Origin: an uncultured Bacteroidales bacterium
GTDB lineage: Bacteria; Bacteroidota; Bacteroidia; Bacteroidales; WCHB1-69
Assembly (NCBI GenBank): GCA_905233745.1
Contig: CAJODA010000025.1
Coordinates: forward strand, 1,537-44,886
Reading direction: 5' to 3'
Length of the DNA: 43,350 bases
Of the stretch, positions 18,353-41,350 are shown piece after piece. The first letter of the stretch is position 1. Every line of letters begins with the position of its first letter. Made by a program: the position numbers and the translations under genes. Under the pieces are notes generated by a model. The model saw only the letters and a program-made list of their open reading frames with translations, searched no databases and had not been told where the DNA came from.

Positions 18353-18401
18353 CCAACCCCATTCACCCCGTTCACCTTTCACCTCATGCACCTCATGCAC
18401 C
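18353..18401 (-). repeat. nonamer array (RRGGTGMAW) directly after the exporter gene
   Basis: Read on the minus strand this is a run of 9-base units such as AGGGTGCAT, GAGGTGCAT, GAGGTGAAA and GGGGTGAAT. It begins about one base after the stop of the metal-exporter-like gene (18403) and runs in that gene's sense direction. The same units occur at 25447, 35082, 39459, 39541 and 41311. Confidence 0.8.
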
Positions 18402-18402
18402 C

Positions 18403-19296
18403 TTATATTAAAATCGCTCCTACTATCAATCCCAGTGCCAGTGTAATGCTCTTGACGATGAGGAAGTTCTTGCGCGATTGTGCCAGCAGCGGAAGTCCGG
18501 CGTGTCCGTTTTGAGATATCGAATTGGCTAACAGGATGCCGAACGGGATGGAGCCGTTGAGGAACATGACGATAAAGATGAGGTTAGGACCCGATTCGGG
18601 GATGAACCCGATGAGCACGGCCAGCAGCAACATGGCGTATTTGGCCCAACTTCTGGCCTGAAGAAAGCTCTCCACATCTACAAACAGTCCGATAATCATG
18701 AGCAGCAGCAGGATGCCAAACGACCAAAGGAAAACCTTTAGCAGATGCTGTTTCACCACGTGGTGCCAAAAATGATCTATCATGAAATGGAGCATGCGGT
18801 TTTTAAAACCGGTTCCAGGCGTTTCAGGATCGGCGTGCTCATGGCCGTCAACATTCTCATGAATGTCGAAGTTGTGTGTTTCCAGCGTGAATTTCCATTT
18901 TTTGGAGATGAGCATGAATAGCAGGCCGGTACAAATGGCGATGCCGGTCAGTATGGCGGTGAGGATGGCGCCCCATTTGGGATTCTGTACAAAAAGGAAG
19001 AAGGCTTCGTCGCCGAATGTGGCGGTCATGCCGGCAATAAGGGCGCTGAAAGAGAGCAGGTCGTGGGTGAACATGGAGACTAAGGCAAACCCGCCCGCGC
19101 AGCCGGGGATGGCACCCAGCAGTGCGGCGATGAGGATTTGCAGAAAAGGTTTTTTGCGCACTTTGGCCAACAGTTTTCCCGAAGATGATACGTTGATAAG
19201 TTCAATCAGCGTCATCATCAGAATCACCAAGCCTGTGATTTCCAGACTCTCTGTTAAGACATCAAGAAGTTGGTGCAGAATGAAAGACTTGTCCAT
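18403..19296 (-). CDS. putative heavy-metal/manganese exporter (ArsP_2/DUF2899-like membrane protein)
   Basis: A 297-residue protein with about eight to ten membrane helices in two halves, separated by a His/Asp-rich cytoplasmic loop (HNFDIHENVDGHEHADPE, then a HFWHH cluster). The halves carry related motifs, GAIPGCAGGFALVSMF and GFIPESGPNLIFIVMF. This matches the family annotated as putative 10-TM heavy-metal exporter or putative manganese transporter (DUF2899/ArsP_2). Metal export is inferred from the family and the His-rich loop. The start lies one base after the stop of the iron-sulfur protein gene, so it is the last gene of the DRTGG-RsbW-iron-sulfur operon. Confidence 0.75.
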   Translation of the reverse strand: MDKSFILHQLLDVLTESLEITGLVILMMTLIELINVSSSGKLLAKVRKKPFLQILIAALLGAIPGCAGGFALVSMFTHDLLSFSALIAGMTATFGDEAFFLFVQNPKWGAILTAILTGIAICTGLLFMLISKKWKFTLETHNFDIHENVDGHEHADPETPGTGFKNRMLHFMIDHFWHHVVKQHLLKVFLWSFGILLLLMIIGLFVDVESFLQARSWAKYAMLLLAVLIGFIPESGPNLIFIVMFLNGSIPFGILLANSISQNGHAGLPLLAQSRKNFLIVKSITLALGLIVGAILI

Positions 19297-24400: not shown

Positions 24401-25183
24401 ATGAGAAGACTATTATTTGCAATCATTTTCGCCTTGGCCTGTATCAGCACTTTTGGACAGCCTGTGGCACCGGCCAAATCCGAACCGAAATCCGACACTT
24501 CCATCACCGACAAGGTGATTTATTGGTATAATGACCATTTGAACTATGGAACTGTGACTTTGCTTATGGCCATTGAGAGTTCGTTCATTCCGTTCCCTTC
24601 TGAAGTCATTGTGCCTCCTGCGGCGTACCAGGCTTGTAATGCAGACAATGAGTCTTTGTATAAGACAGACTCCAAATTTCTGAATGTCTTGTTGGTCATT
24701 CTGTTCGCCTCCTTGGGGGCCATGATTGGTGCTTTGGTCAACTATTTTCTTGCTTTGATATTGGGCCGTCCTGTCATTTATTGGTTTGCCGATAGCAAAG
24801 TGGGGCATTTGCTGATGCTGAACAGCCAGAAAATCCGCAAGGCGGAGGATTATTTCATTGAGCATGGCAAGAGCTCTACGCTCATCGGCCGTCTGATTCC
24901 GGCAGTTCGTCAGCTGATATCCATTCCAGCCGGTCTGGCCAAGATGAAATTGGGTGTCTTTGCTCTATATACTGCTATTGGCGCTACGCTTTGGAATTCA
25001 ATCCTGGCCTTTCTAGGATACCTTGCCCATGGTCAGCAGGATATGATTGAGAAATACAACAGCGAGCTGAAGATTGCGTTATGGGGCGTCGGAATTCTGT
25101 TTGTACTATACCTTATATATAAAGGTGTGAAATCATCACGTGCCCCTAAAGCGGAAGCTCCCGATGAAAATACCCGGTCATGA
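24401..25183 (+). CDS. DedA-family membrane protein
   Basis: A 260-residue membrane protein of the DedA/SNARE-associated (VTT domain) family. The family blocks are ESSFIPFPSEVIVPPAAYQA and STLIGRLIPAVRQLISIPAG, the latter with the conserved G-R-x-x-P-x-x-R. Recent work on DedA proteins points to transport or scrambling of polyprenyl phosphate and phospholipids; which applies here is unknown. It has an N-terminal hydrophobic, signal-like segment followed by a short linker. The start at 24401 (MRRLLFAI) is preferred; a longer open frame to 24275 lies inside the TPR gene. The stop overlaps the aroE start (ATGA). Confidence 0.88.
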   Translation: MRRLLFAIIFALACISTFGQPVAPAKSEPKSDTSITDKVIYWYNDHLNYGTVTLLMAIESSFIPFPSEVIVPPAAYQACNADNESLYKTDSKFLNVLLVILFASLGAMIGALVNYFLALILGRPVIYWFADSKVGHLLMLNSQKIRKAEDYFIEHGKSSTLIGRLIPAVRQLISIPAGLAKMKLGVFALYTAIGATLWNSILAFLGYLAHGQQDMIEKYNSELKIALWGVGILFVLYLIYKGVKSSRAPKAEAPDENTRS

Positions 25184-26007
25184 GACAGTACGGATTGATC
25201 GGCAAATCCTTATCGCACAGTTTTTCAAAGGCATATTTTGAAGAAAAATTCCGACAGAAAGGCTTGGGTGGCCACGTCTATGACCTGTTTGAGCTCCCTG
25301 ACATAGGAATGCTTCCTGATTTCATTGTCTCTAAGCCGGAGTTGTGCGGGTTCAATGTGACCATTCCCTTTAAAAGAAGTATTATTCCGTTTCTGGACGA
25401 ACTCTCACCGGAGGCAGCCGCTATTGGTGCGGTGAATGTGGTGGAGAGGGTGCATGGGGTGCATGAGGTGAAAGGGGTAAATGAGGTAAAAGGGGTGAAA
25501 GGGGTAAATGAGGTGAATGGGGTACAAAGGGTGAAAGGGGAGAATGGAGTTTGGTTGAAGGGGTATAATACGGATGTTGAAGGGTTTGCGATGTCATTGG
25601 AGGGTGTTGAACTGCCGGGAAGGGCACTTGTGTTGGGTACGGGCGGTGCCGCTTCGGCGGTCGGTTTCGTGCTCCGGCAGCGCGGAATCCCCTTTTTGCA
25701 GGTGTCGAGAGCCCCGGGGCAGGGCGATCTCACGTATGCGGAAGTGACTGGGCAGATATTGCGCGATTACCCGTTAGTGGTCAACTGCACGCCCGTGGGC
25801 ACGCTGGGTGAGCCGCAGCGATTGCTGCCGTTGCCATACGAGGCTTTGACCTCAGAGCATTATCTGTACGATTTGGTGTACAACCCTGACATTACACCAT
25901 TCTTGCGGGAAGGGTTGCAGCGTGGGGCGCGTGTGCAAAACGGATTGAAAATGCTGCACCTTCAGGCTGAAGCCGCCTGGCGGATTTGGAACAGCTTAGA
26001 AGAATAA
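25180..26007 (+). CDS. aroE: shikimate dehydrogenase with in-frame repeat insertion
   Basis: The 275-residue enzyme reduces 3-dehydroshikimate to shikimate with NADPH in aromatic amino-acid synthesis. Family blocks are GLIGKSLSHSFSKAYFEEKF (substrate Ser pair), FNVTIPFKRSI (catalytic Lys), KGYNTDVEGF (catalytic Asp), VLGTGGAASAVGFVL (NADP binding) and the closing NGLKMLHLQAEAAWRIW. Between GAVNVVE and VWLKGYNTD, where homologues have only a short hairpin, lie about 33 residues of the pattern [G/E/R]-V-[H/K/N/Q], encoded by eleven 9-base units (25447-25545). All core motifs remain in frame on both sides, so the enzyme may be functional with a flexible, basic loop. It overlaps dedA by ATGA and the convergent dciA-like gene by 12 bases. 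Confidence 0.92.
   Translation: MRQYGLIGKSLSHSFSKAYFEEKFRQKGLGGHVYDLFELPDIGMLPDFIVSKPELCGFNVTIPFKRSIIPFLDELSPEAAAIGAVNVVERVHGVHEVKGVNEVKGVKGVNEVNGVQRVKGENGVWLKGYNTDVEGFAMSLEGVELPGRALVLGTGGAASAVGFVLRQRGIPFLQVSRAPGQGDLTYAEVTGQILRDYPLVVNCTPVGTLGEPQRLLPLPYEALTSEHYLYDLVYNPDITPFLREGLQRGARVQNGLKMLHLQAEAAWRIWNSLEE
25447..25545 (+). repeat. eleven-unit nonamer array inside aroE
   Basis: Eleven units of 9 bases fit RRGGTRMAW, with slight drift in the last (GGGGAGAAT). Examples are AGGGTGCAT (25447), GAGGTGAAA (25465), GGGGTAAAT (25474 and 25501) and GGGGTACAA (25519). Unit edges coincide exactly with aroE codons, so each unit encodes one tripeptide: RVH, GVH, EVK, GVN, EVK, GVK, GVN, EVN, GVQ, RVK and GEN in order. 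The same unit family forms intergenic arrays at five other places in the window. Confidence 0.95.
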
Positions 26008-29230: not shown

Positions 29231-29614
29231 ATGAATGAAAACGAAATTGCTCGCATTGTGGTTGACGCTGCGATTAGGGTTCACAAATTCTTAGGACCTG
29301 GATTGTTGGAAAAAACATATCAAGAATGCTTGTTTTACGAGCTGTACAGTCGAGGCTTACGGGTTGAGAAAGAGAAGTACTTACCCATTATTTATTATGA
29401 TATGCGAATCGAGCACGCATTCAGGATGGATTTGGTGGTAGAGCAAAAGGTCGTGGTAGAAACCAAAAGTGTTGCAACCTTGTTGGGAATACATTTAGCA
29501 CAAACATTGACATATCTTCGATTGGGAAACTATAAACTTGGATTGCTGCTGAATTTCAATGTTGAACGAATGAAGGATGGTGGAATAAGAAGGGTTATTT
29601 GTGGGAATCTCTAG
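29231..29614 (+). CDS. GxxExxY-family protein (PD-(D/E)XK fold)
   Basis: A 127-residue protein of the GxxExxY family, named for the motif seen here as GLLEKTY (residues 24-30) in HKFLGPGLLEKTYQECLFYE. The later FRMDLVVEQKVVVETKSV carries the Asp and the Glu-x-Lys of a PD-(D/E)XK nuclease-like core. These proteins are often present in many copies in Bacteroidota and other environmental genomes, and their function is unknown. Base composition is more AT-rich than the neighbours, consistent with recent acquisition. It is followed six bases after its stop by a 9-base tandem array. Confidence 0.85.
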   Translation: MNENEIARIVVDAAIRVHKFLGPGLLEKTYQECLFYELYSRGLRVEKEKYLPIIYYDMRIEHAFRMDLVVEQKVVVETKSVATLLGIHLAQTLTYLRLGNYKLGLLLNFNVERMKDGGIRRVICGNL

Positions 29615-29620
29615 TACCTC

Positions 29621-29718
29621 CTTTGTGCCCTTTGCGATCTTTGTGGTCTTTGTGGTCTTTGTGGTCTTTGTGCCCTTTGTGTAAAAAAAAACACCAAGAA
29701 CGCTAAGAACACAAAGGG
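29621..29718 (+). repeat. CTTTGTGGT nonamer array with hairpin end
   Basis: Seven exact 9-base units run from 29621 to 29683: CTTTGTGCC, CTTTGCGAT, three copies of CTTTGTGGT, CTTTGTGCC and CTTTGTGTA. An A run follows, then a non-repeat stretch, and ACACAAAGGG (29709-29718), the exact complement of CCCTTTGTGT (29673-29682), so the end can fold into a 10-bp hairpin. It lies between the convergent GxxExxY and tonB genes. Confidence 0.9.
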
Positions 29719-35070: not shown

Positions 35071-35081
35071 CGTTGGCACAT

Positions 35082-35117
35082 GGGGTGCATGAGGTGAAAA
35101 GAGTAAAAGAGATAAAT
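35082..35117 (+). repeat. nonamer array after lolA
   Basis: Four 9-base units in register: GGGGTGCAT, GAGGTGAAA, AGAGTAAAA and GAGATAAAT. They begin 12 bases after the lolA stop and run in its sense direction. GGCCGTTGGCCAATGGCTAA (35118-35137), a word of the rpsT-type tract, follows directly and overlaps the end of the microprotein gene on the other strand. Confidence 0.8.
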
Positions 35118-38018: not shown

Positions 38019-39405
38019 TCACCGTTTCACCACCTTCACGGTCCTTACCGCGCCATCGCGCAGGGTGACGCGCAGAACGTACAGGCCGGTGGGGATGTCG
38101 GAGGTGGTGACCGTGGTTGTCGGGGACGGTAGAGACGCACGGCCGTGCGTCTCTACGGGAATCACCCGCCCGAACATGTCGGACATTTCAATCTGGGCGA
38201 TTCCACCGTCCGTCATTGTGACGTGCAGGGTTTCACCCACAGGGTTGGGATAAAGCATAATCCTAGGGGACAAATGTTGTTCGCTTATGCCAGTCGGGAA
38301 TCCGCCATCAGCATGAAGAAGATGAGGAAGCGGATTAAAATGGCCGTGGCACACCATCCAGAATGTCGAGTCTCCTACAGATTGCACGTCTGTAATGCTA
38401 TTCCAAAAATAATTGTCCTCCAAACGGCTCCAATGCTGTCCGGAATCCCGTGTCAGCAATATGCAGTTGTATGTACACAATATATCCTGCATGTCATTCC
38501 CGCTGGCTATGCATTCCCCCAGACAGGAAGGACACTCGCATACGGTCATACGACAATGCCCAGGAGCAGGGCCTGTTTTGAATCGCCCATGGCTCCTGCC
38601 ACGGGAGCACCGTGGTGTCCACCGTGGCAAAACCGTCGGTCGTGGTGTACATCCTGCGACCTATGACACGACCCGAATGCTTGTTGTCCATGGACAGACA
38701 CCGTTCCGGCCCTATCCCGTAGAATGATGCACGATCTTCTCCTTTCTCATAGGGCGTTTCATGATAGATCGGGAAGGTGTTTGCCGCAATCCATGTTTCT
38801 GCCGAATCGTCCGAATAATACATGTTCATGGTTGAGGAGTCTTCGTATATCACATATATCCTGCCTTCGGCTATACAGAAATCACGCACAGTCATGGACG
38901 GGTCTGGCTTCGGAAGGTAGTCCCATGTTTCCCCTCCGTCAAGGCTTCTTAACAAACCGCCTGATGTCCGGGCAATCAAGGTGTCCAGATTAAGCCATTG
39001 TATGTCATGGAAATCATGCAGGCTATCTACCAGAATCCATGTGTTGCCGCCATCCGTGGTCTTGAACAACGCCGTCATCAGGTCGTCAGGCTGATTCAAA
39101 ACCTCGGGAAATCGGTTCCCTGAAACAACAAATCCCTCATTGTCATCATAAAAACGGGTCAGAACAAGACTGTACCGGTTGGAGTCCGGGGTGTCCAACC
39201 CCACATTATACCAGCTCTGACCACCGTCGGTTGACTTGTACACTTTACCTCCTATGCCGCATGAGTAGAATATGTCCTGTGACGGGCATGAGATGCTGAC
39301 CGGGGAAAAGCCGTCAATATACACGGGTGAAAACTGCCCTCTCGCCACCCCACCGCACAACAGCAGCAGGGAGAGAAGTGCTGTGGTGAAAGTTACCTTT
39401 TTCAT
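38019..39405 (-). CDS. T9SS-secreted Asp-box beta-propeller protein, frameshifted
   Basis: A signal peptide (MKKVTFTTALLSLLLLCGG) is followed by Asp-box (BNR-like) propeller repeats such as YKSTDGGQSWYNVGL, FKTTDGGNTWILVD, LLRSLDGGETWDYL and LLTRDSGQHWSRL. The C-terminus is a type A type IX secretion sorting domain: IMLYPNPVGETLHVTM, then IPTGLYVLRVTLRDG and VKVVKR. The first frame stops at 38494; the second carries the rest. The two join at a run of five G on the coding strand (38516-38520), where four G would restore SFLSGECIASGND. This may be a sequencing error, decay or slippage-based phase variation. The protein is presumably surface-exposed; its ligand is unknown. Confidence 0.75.
38129..38156. 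repeat. perfect 28-bp palindrome GTAGAGACGCACGG/complement inside a gene
   Basis: GTAGAGACGCACGG (38129-38142) is followed directly by its exact reverse complement (38143-38156). It lies in frame in the sorting-domain region of the T9SS gene and encodes VETHGRASL in a variable loop. Degenerate copies are at 3085-3129. Confidence 0.92.
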
Positions 39406-39442
39406 AACGGAATATTTTTAAGGGTTAATATTTTTTGTTGGG

Positions 39443-39451
39443 GCAAAGATA
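39443..39451 (-). promoter_or_regulatory. -7 box of the T9SS cargo gene
   Basis: Reads TATCTTTGC on the minus strand, 37 bases ahead of the ATG at 39405. A nonamer array starts eight bases upstream of it. Confidence 0.5.
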
Positions 39452-39458
39452 GGGAAAA

Positions 39459-39510
39459 AGGGTGGGTGAATGGGGTACATGGGGTGAAAGGGGTGAAGTT
39501 GGTGCATGGG
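39459..39510 (+). repeat. nonamer array between T9SS gene and lipoprotein gene
   Basis: Units GGGGTACAT (39472), GGGGTGAAA (39481), GGGGTGAAG (39490) and TTGGTGCAT (39499) are in register, with irregular flanks. This is the only array here that is not downstream of a stop on its own strand. It forms an inverted pair with the array at 39541-39586. Confidence 0.75.
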
Positions 39511-39540
39511 GATTAAATTAAAGACTAAAGACTGGAGACT

Positions 39541-39586
39541 GTACCCCATTCACCTCTTGCACCTCTTGTACCACATGTACCCCATT
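39541..39586 (-). repeat. nonamer array after the lipoprotein gene
   Basis: On the minus strand: GGGGTACAT, GTGGTACAA, GAGGTGCAA, GAGGTGAAT and GGGGTAC, beginning about four bases after the stop of the lipoprotein gene (39591) in its sense direction. Confidence 0.8.
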
Positions 39587-39590
39587 TTTT

Positions 39591-40088
39591 CTAAAAGTTA
39601 TTGTACTCCGGCTTGTTGGTATAGAACAGTCCGGTGAAGATGAACTGGAGGGTGGCGGTGTCGCGCTCGACCAGCTGCGCAGGGATGTTGAGGTACGCAT
39701 TGTTGCCGCTCTCACCCGTGCTCAAAGACCGCGCCGGCATGTTGAAGAAATCCTCGCTGGTCAGCCCGAACGTGTCCGTGGTCGTGGCCGTGATGGCTGT
39801 ACCTACCTGCTGGAGGGTTACAGAGGCTCCTTGACTGCAGTCATGACCAATACCCTGACAAGGCACATGGGTACTTTGACCGTTAATTACGACACAACTG
39901 TTCTTACAGACACTCGCATTATGTCCGGCACTTACAAATATCGTGTACGCGCCTCCTGTCTTATCGGACGATTGTTGGGCAACTAAAATGTTTTTTTCGG
40001 ATGACAGGTCGTCAACGCATGACCCAAATGCGACGGACAGACATAATGCCATCAAAATAATCCCGGTTTGATTTTTGTAGTTTTTCAT
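39591..40088 (-). CDS. small putative lipoprotein, function unknown
   Basis: A 165-residue protein with a signal segment (GIILMALCLSVAFGSC) and a probable lipidation Cys followed by VDDLSSEKN, an acidic start often seen on Bacteroidota surface lipoproteins. The mature part contains five further Cys (SVCKNSCVVINGQSTHVPCQ and HDCSQ) and a Thr-rich strand region. No domain is recognised. The start at 40088 (MKNYKNQTG) is chosen over 40142 because it gives a normal signal peptide. It is divergent from the LytTR regulator gene, with an inverted repeat in the shared gap, so the regulator may control it. Confidence 0.62.
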   Translation of the reverse strand: MKNYKNQTGIILMALCLSVAFGSCVDDLSSEKNILVAQQSSDKTGGAYTIFVSAGHNASVCKNSCVVINGQSTHVPCQGIGHDCSQGASVTLQQVGTAITATTTDTFGLTSEDFFNMPARSLSTGESGNNAYLNIPAQLVERDTATLQFIFTGLFYTNKPEYNNF

Positions 40089-40153
40089 CATAGCTTTTAT
40101 GAGTTTAGTTTCGCCGTAAAAATACATGTGTTTTTTCTGCATTGAGAAAAATG

Positions 40154-40172
40154 TGACGAAATTTTTTCGTCA
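40154..40172. promoter_or_regulatory. inverted-repeat operator candidate in the lipoprotein-LytTR gap
   Basis: TGACGAAA (40154-40161), TTT, and TTTCGTCA (40165-40172) form a perfect 8-bp inverted repeat. It lies where the -33 element of the LytTR gene promoter would be, which suggests an operator for autoregulation or for the divergent lipoprotein gene. Confidence 0.5.
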
Positions 40173-40178
40173 TTTGAC

Positions 40179-40187
40179 TATTTTTGC
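40179..40187 (+). promoter_or_regulatory. -7 box of the LytTR regulator gene
   Basis: TATTTTTGC, 13 bases ahead of the ATG at 40201, just downstream of the inverted repeat. Confidence 0.5.
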
Positions 40188-40200
40188 AAAAAAAAAGGAT

Positions 40201-41325
40201 ATGAAAAAACAGTTGCTACTTGCCGGATATATCTTCGAGACCCTTTTTTGGGTTTTCACAATCTACATGTTTCTAAACAACGCGTTTCTACGTCCCATGC
40301 AAAACCGGACGGTAGAATGCGCCATCGTTGGTATAATCGCTCTTGTCGTCTATGCGGAAAAGTATTTATTCACTCCTTATATTTTGTTGAAAAACAGGCC
40401 ATTGTGGTATGTCTTGACGCTCGTGGCTGCTGTTGCCGCCGCCTCTGCCGTGGAATTTGTCCTTGTGAAGCCTAGCATCATTTCCCTATATGCCGCTTAC
40501 ACCTCGGATATTGTTTTAAATGACTATCTGTCAAGTGTTTTAACAAATGTTTTCCTGCGCAATTCCGCTTTCATCTGCTTTTTTGTTCTTCTGCATACCA
40601 GTTATATCCTAATGAATACGTTGAGGGGGGAGCGGAAAATGCTTTCTGAAAAGGAAAACAAAATCGTCATCATGCTAAACCACAACAGGTTGACCACTAT
40701 TGACACCGACAAAATCCGTTATGCGCAGTGTGACGGAAACTCCACCACGATATATCTTAAAAACGGGCAGTCATACAAACAATACGTCTCCCTGTCAGCC
40801 GTTGAGGACAGCCTTTCGGAAGACAAATGCTTGAGAATCAACAGAAACACACTTGTCTTGTTTGACAGCATTGACTGCTACACTGTAAACGGCGTTTTCC
40901 TGCAAGGAATGGAAAATCCTCTGCCCTACTACCAAAAGGAATCCGAAAAAGTGCTGTCCAGACTCCTGATCTGGAACCACTGGAAATTCTCGAAGCAATC
41001 CGACCCCGAAATCGTGCGAAAAAATCATGATTTGGCGGGATTGGAGGATGTTCCGGGTGACGAAATTCGGAAAAATGGCGGGATTGGAGCGAAGTTTTTG
41101 GAAGAAAAATCGGATAAAAGTCCGGATTGCGAACAGTTGGAGAAAGTGGTGCAATTCATCCGTCTGAATCCGGGATGCAAGATTTCCGACATTTCGACGG
41201 GAACCGGATTGAAGTTCAGAACCGTGGAAAGACTGGTCCATGTCCTGAAAACGGACGAACGCATCTGCCACAAGGGTTCCAAGCGCTACGGCGGCTACGA
41301 GGTGGTGGAAGGGGGAATGGGGTGA
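40201..41325 (+). CDS. membrane-bound LytTR-family regulator with C-terminal winged helix
   Basis: A 374-residue protein. Four membrane segments (about 5-150) are followed by a LytTR DNA-binding domain (TTIDTDKIRYAQCDGNSTTI, then YKQYVSLSAVEDSL, CLRINRNTLVLFDSID and NGVFLQGM). The C-terminus (about 310-370) looks like a winged-helix unit: EKVVQFIRLNPGCKISDIST, GLKFRTVERLVHVLKTDERI and GSKRYGGYEVV. Membrane LytTR regulators without a kinase are common in Bacteroidota; the additional wHTH is less usual. The start at 40201 is preferred because the longer frame (40126) crosses the promoter. Its last codons (EGGMG and stop) run into a nonamer array that supplies the stop codon. Confidence 0.75.
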   Translation: MKKQLLLAGYIFETLFWVFTIYMFLNNAFLRPMQNRTVECAIVGIIALVVYAEKYLFTPYILLKNRPLWYVLTLVAAVAAASAVEFVLVKPSIISLYAAYTSDIVLNDYLSSVLTNVFLRNSAFICFFVLLHTSYILMNTLRGERKMLSEKENKIVIMLNHNRLTTIDTDKIRYAQCDGNSTTIYLKNGQSYKQYVSLSAVEDSLSEDKCLRINRNTLVLFDSIDCYTVNGVFLQGMENPLPYYQKESEKVLSRLLIWNHWKFSKQSDPEIVRKNHDLAGLEDVPGDEIRKNGGIGAKFLEEKSDKSPDCEQLEKVVQFIRLNPGCKISDISTGTGLKFRTVERLVHVLKTDERICHKGSKRYGGYEVVEGGMG

Positions 41326-41350
41326 AAAGGGTACACGAGGTGCATGAGGG
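41311..41350 (+). repeat. nonamer array overlapping the 3' end of the LytTR gene
   Basis: Units GGGGTGAAA (41319), AGGGTACAC (41328) and GAGGTGCAT (41337) are in register. The TGA in the first unit is the stop codon of the LytTR gene. A word close to TAAAGACTGGAGAC follows, also present near 39525, between the two arrays there. Confidence 0.75.

Follow-up and report, generated by a model that had tools for sequence, protein, structure and literature searches.

A dispersed G-rich nonamer repeat in frame within a Bacteroidales shikimate dehydrogenase gene

Introduction

The window (our name for the whole 43,350-nucleotide stretch of DNA analyzed here, from the genome of an uncultured Bacteroidales bacterium that we call G000) contains an aroE gene, encoding shikimate dehydrogenase, that carries a tandem array of the degenerate nine-nucleotide word RRGGTRMAW. 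Elsewhere in the same genome this word lies mostly outside genes. How did it come to lie in frame within a conserved enzyme, and what has happened to it since? A preliminary description, made from the sequence alone, had proposed that an apparently mobile or expanding noncoding repeat had entered the gene without breaking it.

Results

An in-frame nonamer array at a hairpin turn of AroE

The identity of the host gene (Table 1) was established by a match to the Shikimate_dh_N domain (Pfam PF08501, E 2.4e-19), which was the only PF08501 match in the whole G000 genome, and was backed by PDB AroE chains and by Foldseek on the AlphaFold model, which returned the AroE fold. The array begins at codon 90 of the 275-amino-acid ORF, is aligned to codons, and keeps the frame throughout with no stops. 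Its 99 bases read AGGGTGCAT GGGGTGCAT GAGGTGAAA GGGGTAAAT GAGGTAAAA GGGGTGAAA in the first half, continuing with GGGGTAAAT GAGGTGAAT GGGGTACAA AGGGTGAAA GGGGAGAAT. The preliminary description of 11 codon-aligned nonamers was therefore accurate, except that it had all of them fitting RRGGTRMAW; 10 of the 11 do so, and in the 11th A replaces T at position 5. TRF reported a period of 9 with 13 copies (score 87, 25431–25547) and a period of 27 (score 109, 25431–25531). Directly upstream of the array, the codons GCGGTGAAT GTGGTGGAG are unit-like and share its phase, and might have provided the seed or the homology from which the array arose. When folded as RNA together with these two preceding units, the array gave a predicted energy of -7.3 kcal/mol (z -1.92, with 8 of 200 shuffles equally good), and the predicted stem was limited to its 5′ end.

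Table 1. Positions in the window of aroE, its nonamer array, and the other nonamer arrays.
Feature	Position	Strand	Basis
aroE, shikimate dehydrogenase, 275 aa, array carrier	25180..26007	+	ORF, Pfam, PDB, structure model
Nonamer array, 11 units, AroE residues 90–122	25447..25545	+	sequence, TRF
Native AVN-VVE codons resembling the nonamer unit, in phase with the array	25429..25446	+	sequence
Intergenic array, 3 units	18377..18403	-	pattern detector
Intergenic array, 5 units, partly degenerate	35073..35117	+	pattern detector
Array, 6 units, left arm of inverted pair	39463..39516	+	pattern detector
Array, 5 units, right arm of inverted pair	39539..39583	-	pattern detector
Degenerate array, 5 units	41302..41345	+	pattern detector

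The array sits where it had been placed, between GAVN and GYNTD, at the turn of the hairpin that these two anchors bound. We read 61 AroE loci, in which both anchors were present in 49 and absent in 12. The turn was 14 residues long in 37 of the 49, and rarer lengths were 10 and 25 (three loci each) and 11, 15, and 17 (one each); the array-bearing turns measured 41 residues in G000 and 35 in G016 (apparently the same genome as UBA3868, with the same protein, and so present as two rows, L010 and L039). Because turn length ranges so widely among the 49 loci, the loop is length-tolerant in nature. The three 25-residue turns (L054, L057, and L063), which are 11 residues longer than the commonest one, lack the nonamer word. 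Relative to the 14-residue turn, G000 has gained a net 27 residues or nine units, fewer than the ~33 residues originally estimated, and G016 a net 21 residues or seven units.

Most PDB AroE chains aligned in two blocks, the first reaching ~residue 93 and the second running from ~114–127 onward. The AlphaFold model of the G000 protein (built from 23 sequences, mean pLDDT 85.9) placed strands at residues 87–91 and 125–129, with pLDDT below 50 at 95–118 and 273–275. The model thus predicts with confidence an AroE fold in which the array falls in a low-confidence and probably disordered loop, in keeping with the loop that had been anticipated. In the alignment of 23 AroE sequences, K65, N86, N130, T131, and D132 are invariant. 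In E. coli AroE we take K65, N86, and D102 to be active-site residues; the G000 protein, with its Shikimate_dh_N domain and AroE fold, conserves K65, N86, and the D102 equivalent. Outside the array, G000 and G016 aroE differ with a dN of 0.193 and a dS of 1.156 (233 codons), and by this sequence measure the gene is under purifying selection. With the frame also intact, the earlier view that the conserved enzyme was left unbroken appears sound.

A nonamer family concentrated at gene boundaries

The exact three-unit pattern exceeded chance: it had 92 overlapping matches in the 2.39-Mb G000 genome and matched four of the 40 genomes scanned from the genus (G000, G016, G008, and G045), with the pattern read backward, used as the control, giving 0 in both scans. 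Across the order, a slightly stricter three-unit pattern was found in 2 of 393 genomes, G000 and G045, both of this genus, and was absent from all 389 genomes sampled outside it; here the backward control gave 4 matches in one genome (G194) that had no forward match. A reversed-sequence control returned 69 'arrays'; it could not be used, since an array still looks like the nonamer word after reversal. A degenerate 7-nt word pattern occurred in 22 of the 40 genus genomes, most strongly in G045 (53 and 61); the backward control matched in 13 of the 40. Degenerate 7-nt arrays (such as AACTCTA and TTTAAAC) lie 3′ of nonamer arrays at L079 after 7407, L086 after 7340, and L096 after 5882.

Our survey covered the window and 78 fetched stretches (0.92 Mb in all), a sample picked for holding the pattern rather than a whole-genome census, and detected 128 arrays of 3 to 44 units. 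By a crude longest-ORF method, 95 of them lie outside ORFs and 33 inside, many of the 33 at spurious N-terminal extensions. Further copies are present elsewhere in the window, as had been noticed (Table 1). The three-unit array among them has a counterpart in G016 (L106, 7009–7070) at a similar junction, as paired by eye from the flanks. The region 39400–41302 recurs on another G000 contig (L098, G000:C80, 4982–6890) over ~1.9 kb at 82% identity with array pairs on both, and is a diverged duplicate. A different 9-bp tandem array, CTTTGTGGT (6.8 copies, TRF score 80), occupies 29621–29681 of the window, just after a PDDEXK_3 gene (29231–29614).

Placement was assessed for 93 arrays; we excluded the other 35 of the 128 because they lay within an ORF or at an edge or were too degenerate. 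The 5′ end of the G-rich strand was nearer its ORF than the 3′ end in 71 of the 93 (median distance 8 versus 45 nt; Wilcoxon p 1e-6), and the flanking genes were both same-sense in 29 cases and both antisense in 43; 15 pairs were convergent and only 6 divergent. Non-random placement of this kind, in a G-rich word whose positions 3, 4, 5, and 8 are stable, would suit functional nucleic-acid elements, such as quadruplexes or protein-binding sites at gene ends, with the aroE copy either a by-product or in the same role. We nevertheless judge this reading rather unlikely. The G-tracts were not significantly clustered (18 of 103 four-unit windows were all-G, compared to 13.0 ± 4.1 expected), on which basis we rejected selection for clustered G-tracts, and the number of units varies widely. 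With loci picked by the three-unit pattern, 9 arrays had four units compared to 17, 18, and 17 with five, six, and seven.

The dispersal of arrays in both orientations, between genes as well as in frame in conserved proteins, and their occasional arrangement as inverted pairs would also be expected of a mobile element, comparable to Rickettsia palindromic elements or MITEs, that had inserted into aroE and other genes with the nonamers as its body. The arrays vary in length and have no fixed ends, however, and we found no inverted repeat in 25400–25600 around the aroE array. On these features the mobility suggested by the preliminary description found no support, and we consider an element of this kind improbable.

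Open frames and the rewriting of units

Of the arrays containing a run of four or more good units (104 in all), 96, 0, and 36 were open in the first, second, and third G-strand frames, which contradicts the earlier statement that period nine keeps any frame open, and 103, 98, and 95 were open in the three C-strand frames. The coding arrays in aroE, a Wzy_C tail, and an HU-type linker (the latter two described below) all use the first G-strand frame, the one that is reliably open.

Variation within the word is concentrated at sites 2, 6, 7, and 9, each of which has mainly two letters (G/A, G/A, A/C, and T/A, respectively). Diversity-generating retroelements leave a signature of A-to-any-base variation, which these two-letter sites do not match. 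Among 532 canonical units the four sites showed almost no dependence on one another (0.003 bits of mutual information or less for every pair but sites 6 and 7, at 0.064). Neighboring units were identical in 34 of 329 pairs (0.103), which was indistinguishable from within-array shuffles (0.111 ± 0.017) and above across-array shuffles (0.063 ± 0.013); two units apart, the value was 0.156. That adjacent units are no more alike than in within-array shuffles argues against recent one-unit slippage as the main process: the order of units within arrays is near-random, a pattern that simple one-unit slippage does not predict. In the same 329 canonical pairs, T at position 9 never precedes A at position 1 of the next unit. 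Polar decay of arrays was rejected, with canonical units in the first and last thirds at 0.39 versus 0.43 (n = 97, p = 0.45).

Comparing ten pairs of orthologous arrays (73 aligned units), we found mismatches at 84 of 292 positions for sites 2, 6, 7, and 9 versus 13 of 292 for sites 3, 4, 5, and 8, a difference to be read with the alignment scoring in mind, which favors matches at the constant sites. Steps larger than one unit are nevertheless seen. One G000 array differs from its G008 counterpart by a clean 18-bp gap (9 versus 7 units, with one mismatch in the 60-bp flanks shown); its contig matches G008 with 95% identity across 2.7 kb and 85% across 2.0 kb, and may therefore have been transferred or misbinned. 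Parts of L091 (G000:C55) and L099 (G000:C102) are likewise 95–97% identical to G008 over kilobases, and may reflect recent transfer or misbinned contigs; the Wzy_C gene, unlike these parts, is only 80% identical in DNA between the two genomes. The Wzy_C tail of G045 contains a repeated multi-unit block.

Other proteins that carry the word

In-frame arrays that are absent in relatives were found in three conserved genes: aroE, the C-terminal tail of a Wzy_C protein (O-antigen ligase family), and the linker of a CHU_C protein. The Wzy_C tail carries 5 units in G000, 5 in G008, 12 in G016, and 16 in G045 by the detector, and the tails of G023, G018, and G041 lack the array. The CHU_C linker array, in G000, G008, and G045 (with Pfam run on the G000 and G045 proteins), is read from the opposite strand as an SPHAPHSPLVP-like peptide, and is absent in G016, G023, G018, and G041. 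A linker of the HU-CCDC81 type also carries an array in G000 and G045; of these two proteins, only the G045 one had a SPOR domain call. Less certain as a coding array is the tail of the G045 trigger factor: in the eight other relatives read the tail is K/E-rich, and the word is convincing only in G045. The ORFs across arrays in L091 (7010–7705), L095, L134, L144, L152, and L153 had no Pfam hit and were set aside as spurious, as was that in L160, where the only match was a sub-cutoff collagen hit to the repeat itself. In L157, L111 (6975–10139), and L091 (5610–6452), domains are present, but the array is placed in a possibly untranslated N-terminal extension.

We then compared codon usage in nine sense-strand coding arrays, which are not independent (they include the Wzy_C arrays of all four species, which are orthologous, and the trigger-factor tail, itself uncertain), with that in the rest of the same genes. 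Among synonymous codons, the arrays used GGG in 26 of 30 cases (29 of 200 in the rest), AGG in 5 of 5 (13 of 173), GAG in 57 of 63 (162 of 305), AAT in 20 of 20 (54 of 148), GTG or GTA in 62 of 65 (152 of 264), and CAT in 12 of 12 (29 of 61). No difference between array and rest was seen for AAA (16 of 31 versus 117 of 241) or for GTG alone (40 of 65 versus 131 of 264). Because codon choice in the arrays equals the DNA word, the sense-strand inserts look derived from DNA and not from peptide evolution. This result bears on the idea that the AroE loop is ordinary low-complexity protein evolution, resembling the intergenic word by composition only. The turn does vary in length anyway, reaching 25 residues in the three loci mentioned above, and E/K/V-rich tails are common, as in trigger factor, but ordinary protein evolution would have to arrive at the codons of a noncoding word that is intergenic in the same genomes and opposite-strand in the CHU_C linker, which makes this account very improbable.

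History of the aroE array

The array is known at aroE in two species only, G000 and G016, both draft assemblies, and in G016 it is in frame at the same place. The unit number had been expected to vary between relatives, and it does: the turns of 41 and 35 residues differ by two units. Close relatives all sharing the same insertion, with ordinary substitutions and no change in unit number, which the preliminary description had named as evidence against its proposal, are thus not what is seen. G045 has an ordinary 14-residue turn, GALNVVRVDRTGKQVVLKGYNTD, with the nonamer present elsewhere in its genome; G023 has an 11-residue turn, GAVNVVRVGQGSHLVGYNTD, and no three-unit match in its genome; and in G008, which carries nonamer arrays, no aroE was found in the 59% complete genome. 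An artefact of assembly or a decaying aroE might be suspected in a draft genome of 130 contigs, but is highly improbable given the in-frame array in the independent G016 genome, the lack of stops, and the purifying selection apparent outside the array.

A Wzy+TF protein tree of nine genomes placed the four nonamer carriers in a clade (0.993) apart from G023 and four other relatives; among G000, G016, and G045+G008 it put G000 first, at a support of only 0.657. In an AroE tree with gap columns removed, G000 joined G016 (0.918). As judged from these sequences, the aroE array is older than the G000/G016 split. With G000 and G016 not grouped together in the Wzy+TF tree, the array may have been lost in G045, or aroE may have been transferred.

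Discussion

The account that we favor, and consider likely, is that the aroE array is a copy of a lineage-specific G-rich repeat that entered a turn, was tolerated there, and later underwent unit gain or loss and rewriting. The RRGGTRMAW family is a G-rich, large-unit simple sequence repeat that resides, in four related species belonging to a single Bacteroidales genus, chiefly at the boundaries of genes. Its word would have reached the AroE β-hairpin turn within the carrier clade, before G000 and G016 separated, either by growth from the unit-like native codons GCGGTGAAT-GTGGTG or by copying through recombination at that short homology; we infer such seeding or copying from the shared phase and likeness of these codons. 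The array would have persisted because nine-nucleotide units preserve the frame, because the frame GRG-GTR-MAW is stop-free, and because the turn tolerates changes in length, with a presumably near-neutral effect on the enzyme. After entry, whole units would have been gained or lost, and the changes at the four two-way positions would be explained most simply by recombination among dispersed copies, which we take to be the probable rewriting process.

A broader reading can be offered tentatively. The two-way letters are almost independent, the units follow one another in near-random order, and orthologues change both letters and unit number while the constant letters stay. The family might then be a combinatorial DNA text, shaped by an unknown rewriting process, whether recombination among copies or something more specific, or by an unknown reader selecting for the letters that do not vary. 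As the nine-letter word is open in one G-strand frame and nearly always in all three C-strand frames, the same process would generate loops, linkers, and tails in conserved proteins, all in frame and tunable.

A single word, mostly noncoding, can be traced from dozens of sites at gene boundaries into several conserved proteins that are unrelated to one another. Together with the opposite-strand coding case (CHU_C), relatives without the array, and relatives with other lengths, this offers a small, naturally occurring system in which to ask how the intergenic repeats of bacteria originate, disperse, and are homogenized, and how noncoding DNA turns into protein. AroE is suited to direct assay, with activity compared for no added units, seven, or nine.

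Intergenic repeats of this general kind are already known; what is new here is that the word has entered coding sequence and that its two-way units follow a near-random pattern. In the open-access literature that we searched, there was no report of the RRGGTRMAW nonamer or of a repeat array in aroE. Among described repeats, one comes from Porphyromonas gingivalis, itself a member of the Bacteroidales. This is the minisatellite-MITE BrickBuilt, described in the accessible part of its report as having a 23-nt unit, together with leader and tail subunits, and as lying only in intergenic DNA (PMC4596501); the nonamer is likewise a dispersed tandem array, but has a unit of 9 rather than 23 nt and is partly coding. 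The Rickettsia palindromic elements, according to the available portion of a review, are stem-loops of 105–146 bp with terminal inverted repeats that lie in protein genes, and one tested host enzyme (the gmk product) stays active (PMC2229807). Like them, the nonamer occurs both between genes and in frame inside conserved proteins; unlike them, it forms tandem arrays of variable length, and no terminal inverted repeats were found around the aroE copy (25400–25600).

The TAACTGA heptamers of Beggiatoaceae, Cyanobacteria, and some Bacteroidetes (MacGregor, 2015; PMC4679880) are presented, in the sections available, as patchily distributed and mostly intergenic direct repeats, usually located 5′ of start codons, although some copies are coding and these fall chiefly toward the ends of proteins; close variants are rare, all forward frames contain stops, and no transfer mechanism was evident there. 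The nonamer shares the patchy, mostly intergenic distribution with some coding copies and the lack of an evident transfer mechanism, but is degenerate and has an open forward frame (compare PMC4679880). Finally, the G-rich heptamers GGGAATC and GGGGA(C/T)T of Xanthomonas and Nostoc (Rehm et al., 2015; PMC4692102), as far as the accessible text describes them, form dispersed arrays, single or as inverted pairs, that lie nearer the ORF on the 5′ side in either orientation, are under-represented between divergent gene pairs, and occupy conserved places in related species with differing lengths. The nonamer departs from these GGGNATC repeats in its 9-nt unit with two-way degenerate sites, and in having neither a four-unit peak nor significant G-tract clustering. 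It resembles them in being short, G-rich, and dispersed in mostly non-coding tandem arrays, found as singles or inverted pairs; in abutting the 5′-side ORF (71 of 93 arrays, with only 6 of 93 divergent); and in holding the same places in related species at different lengths (PMC4692102).
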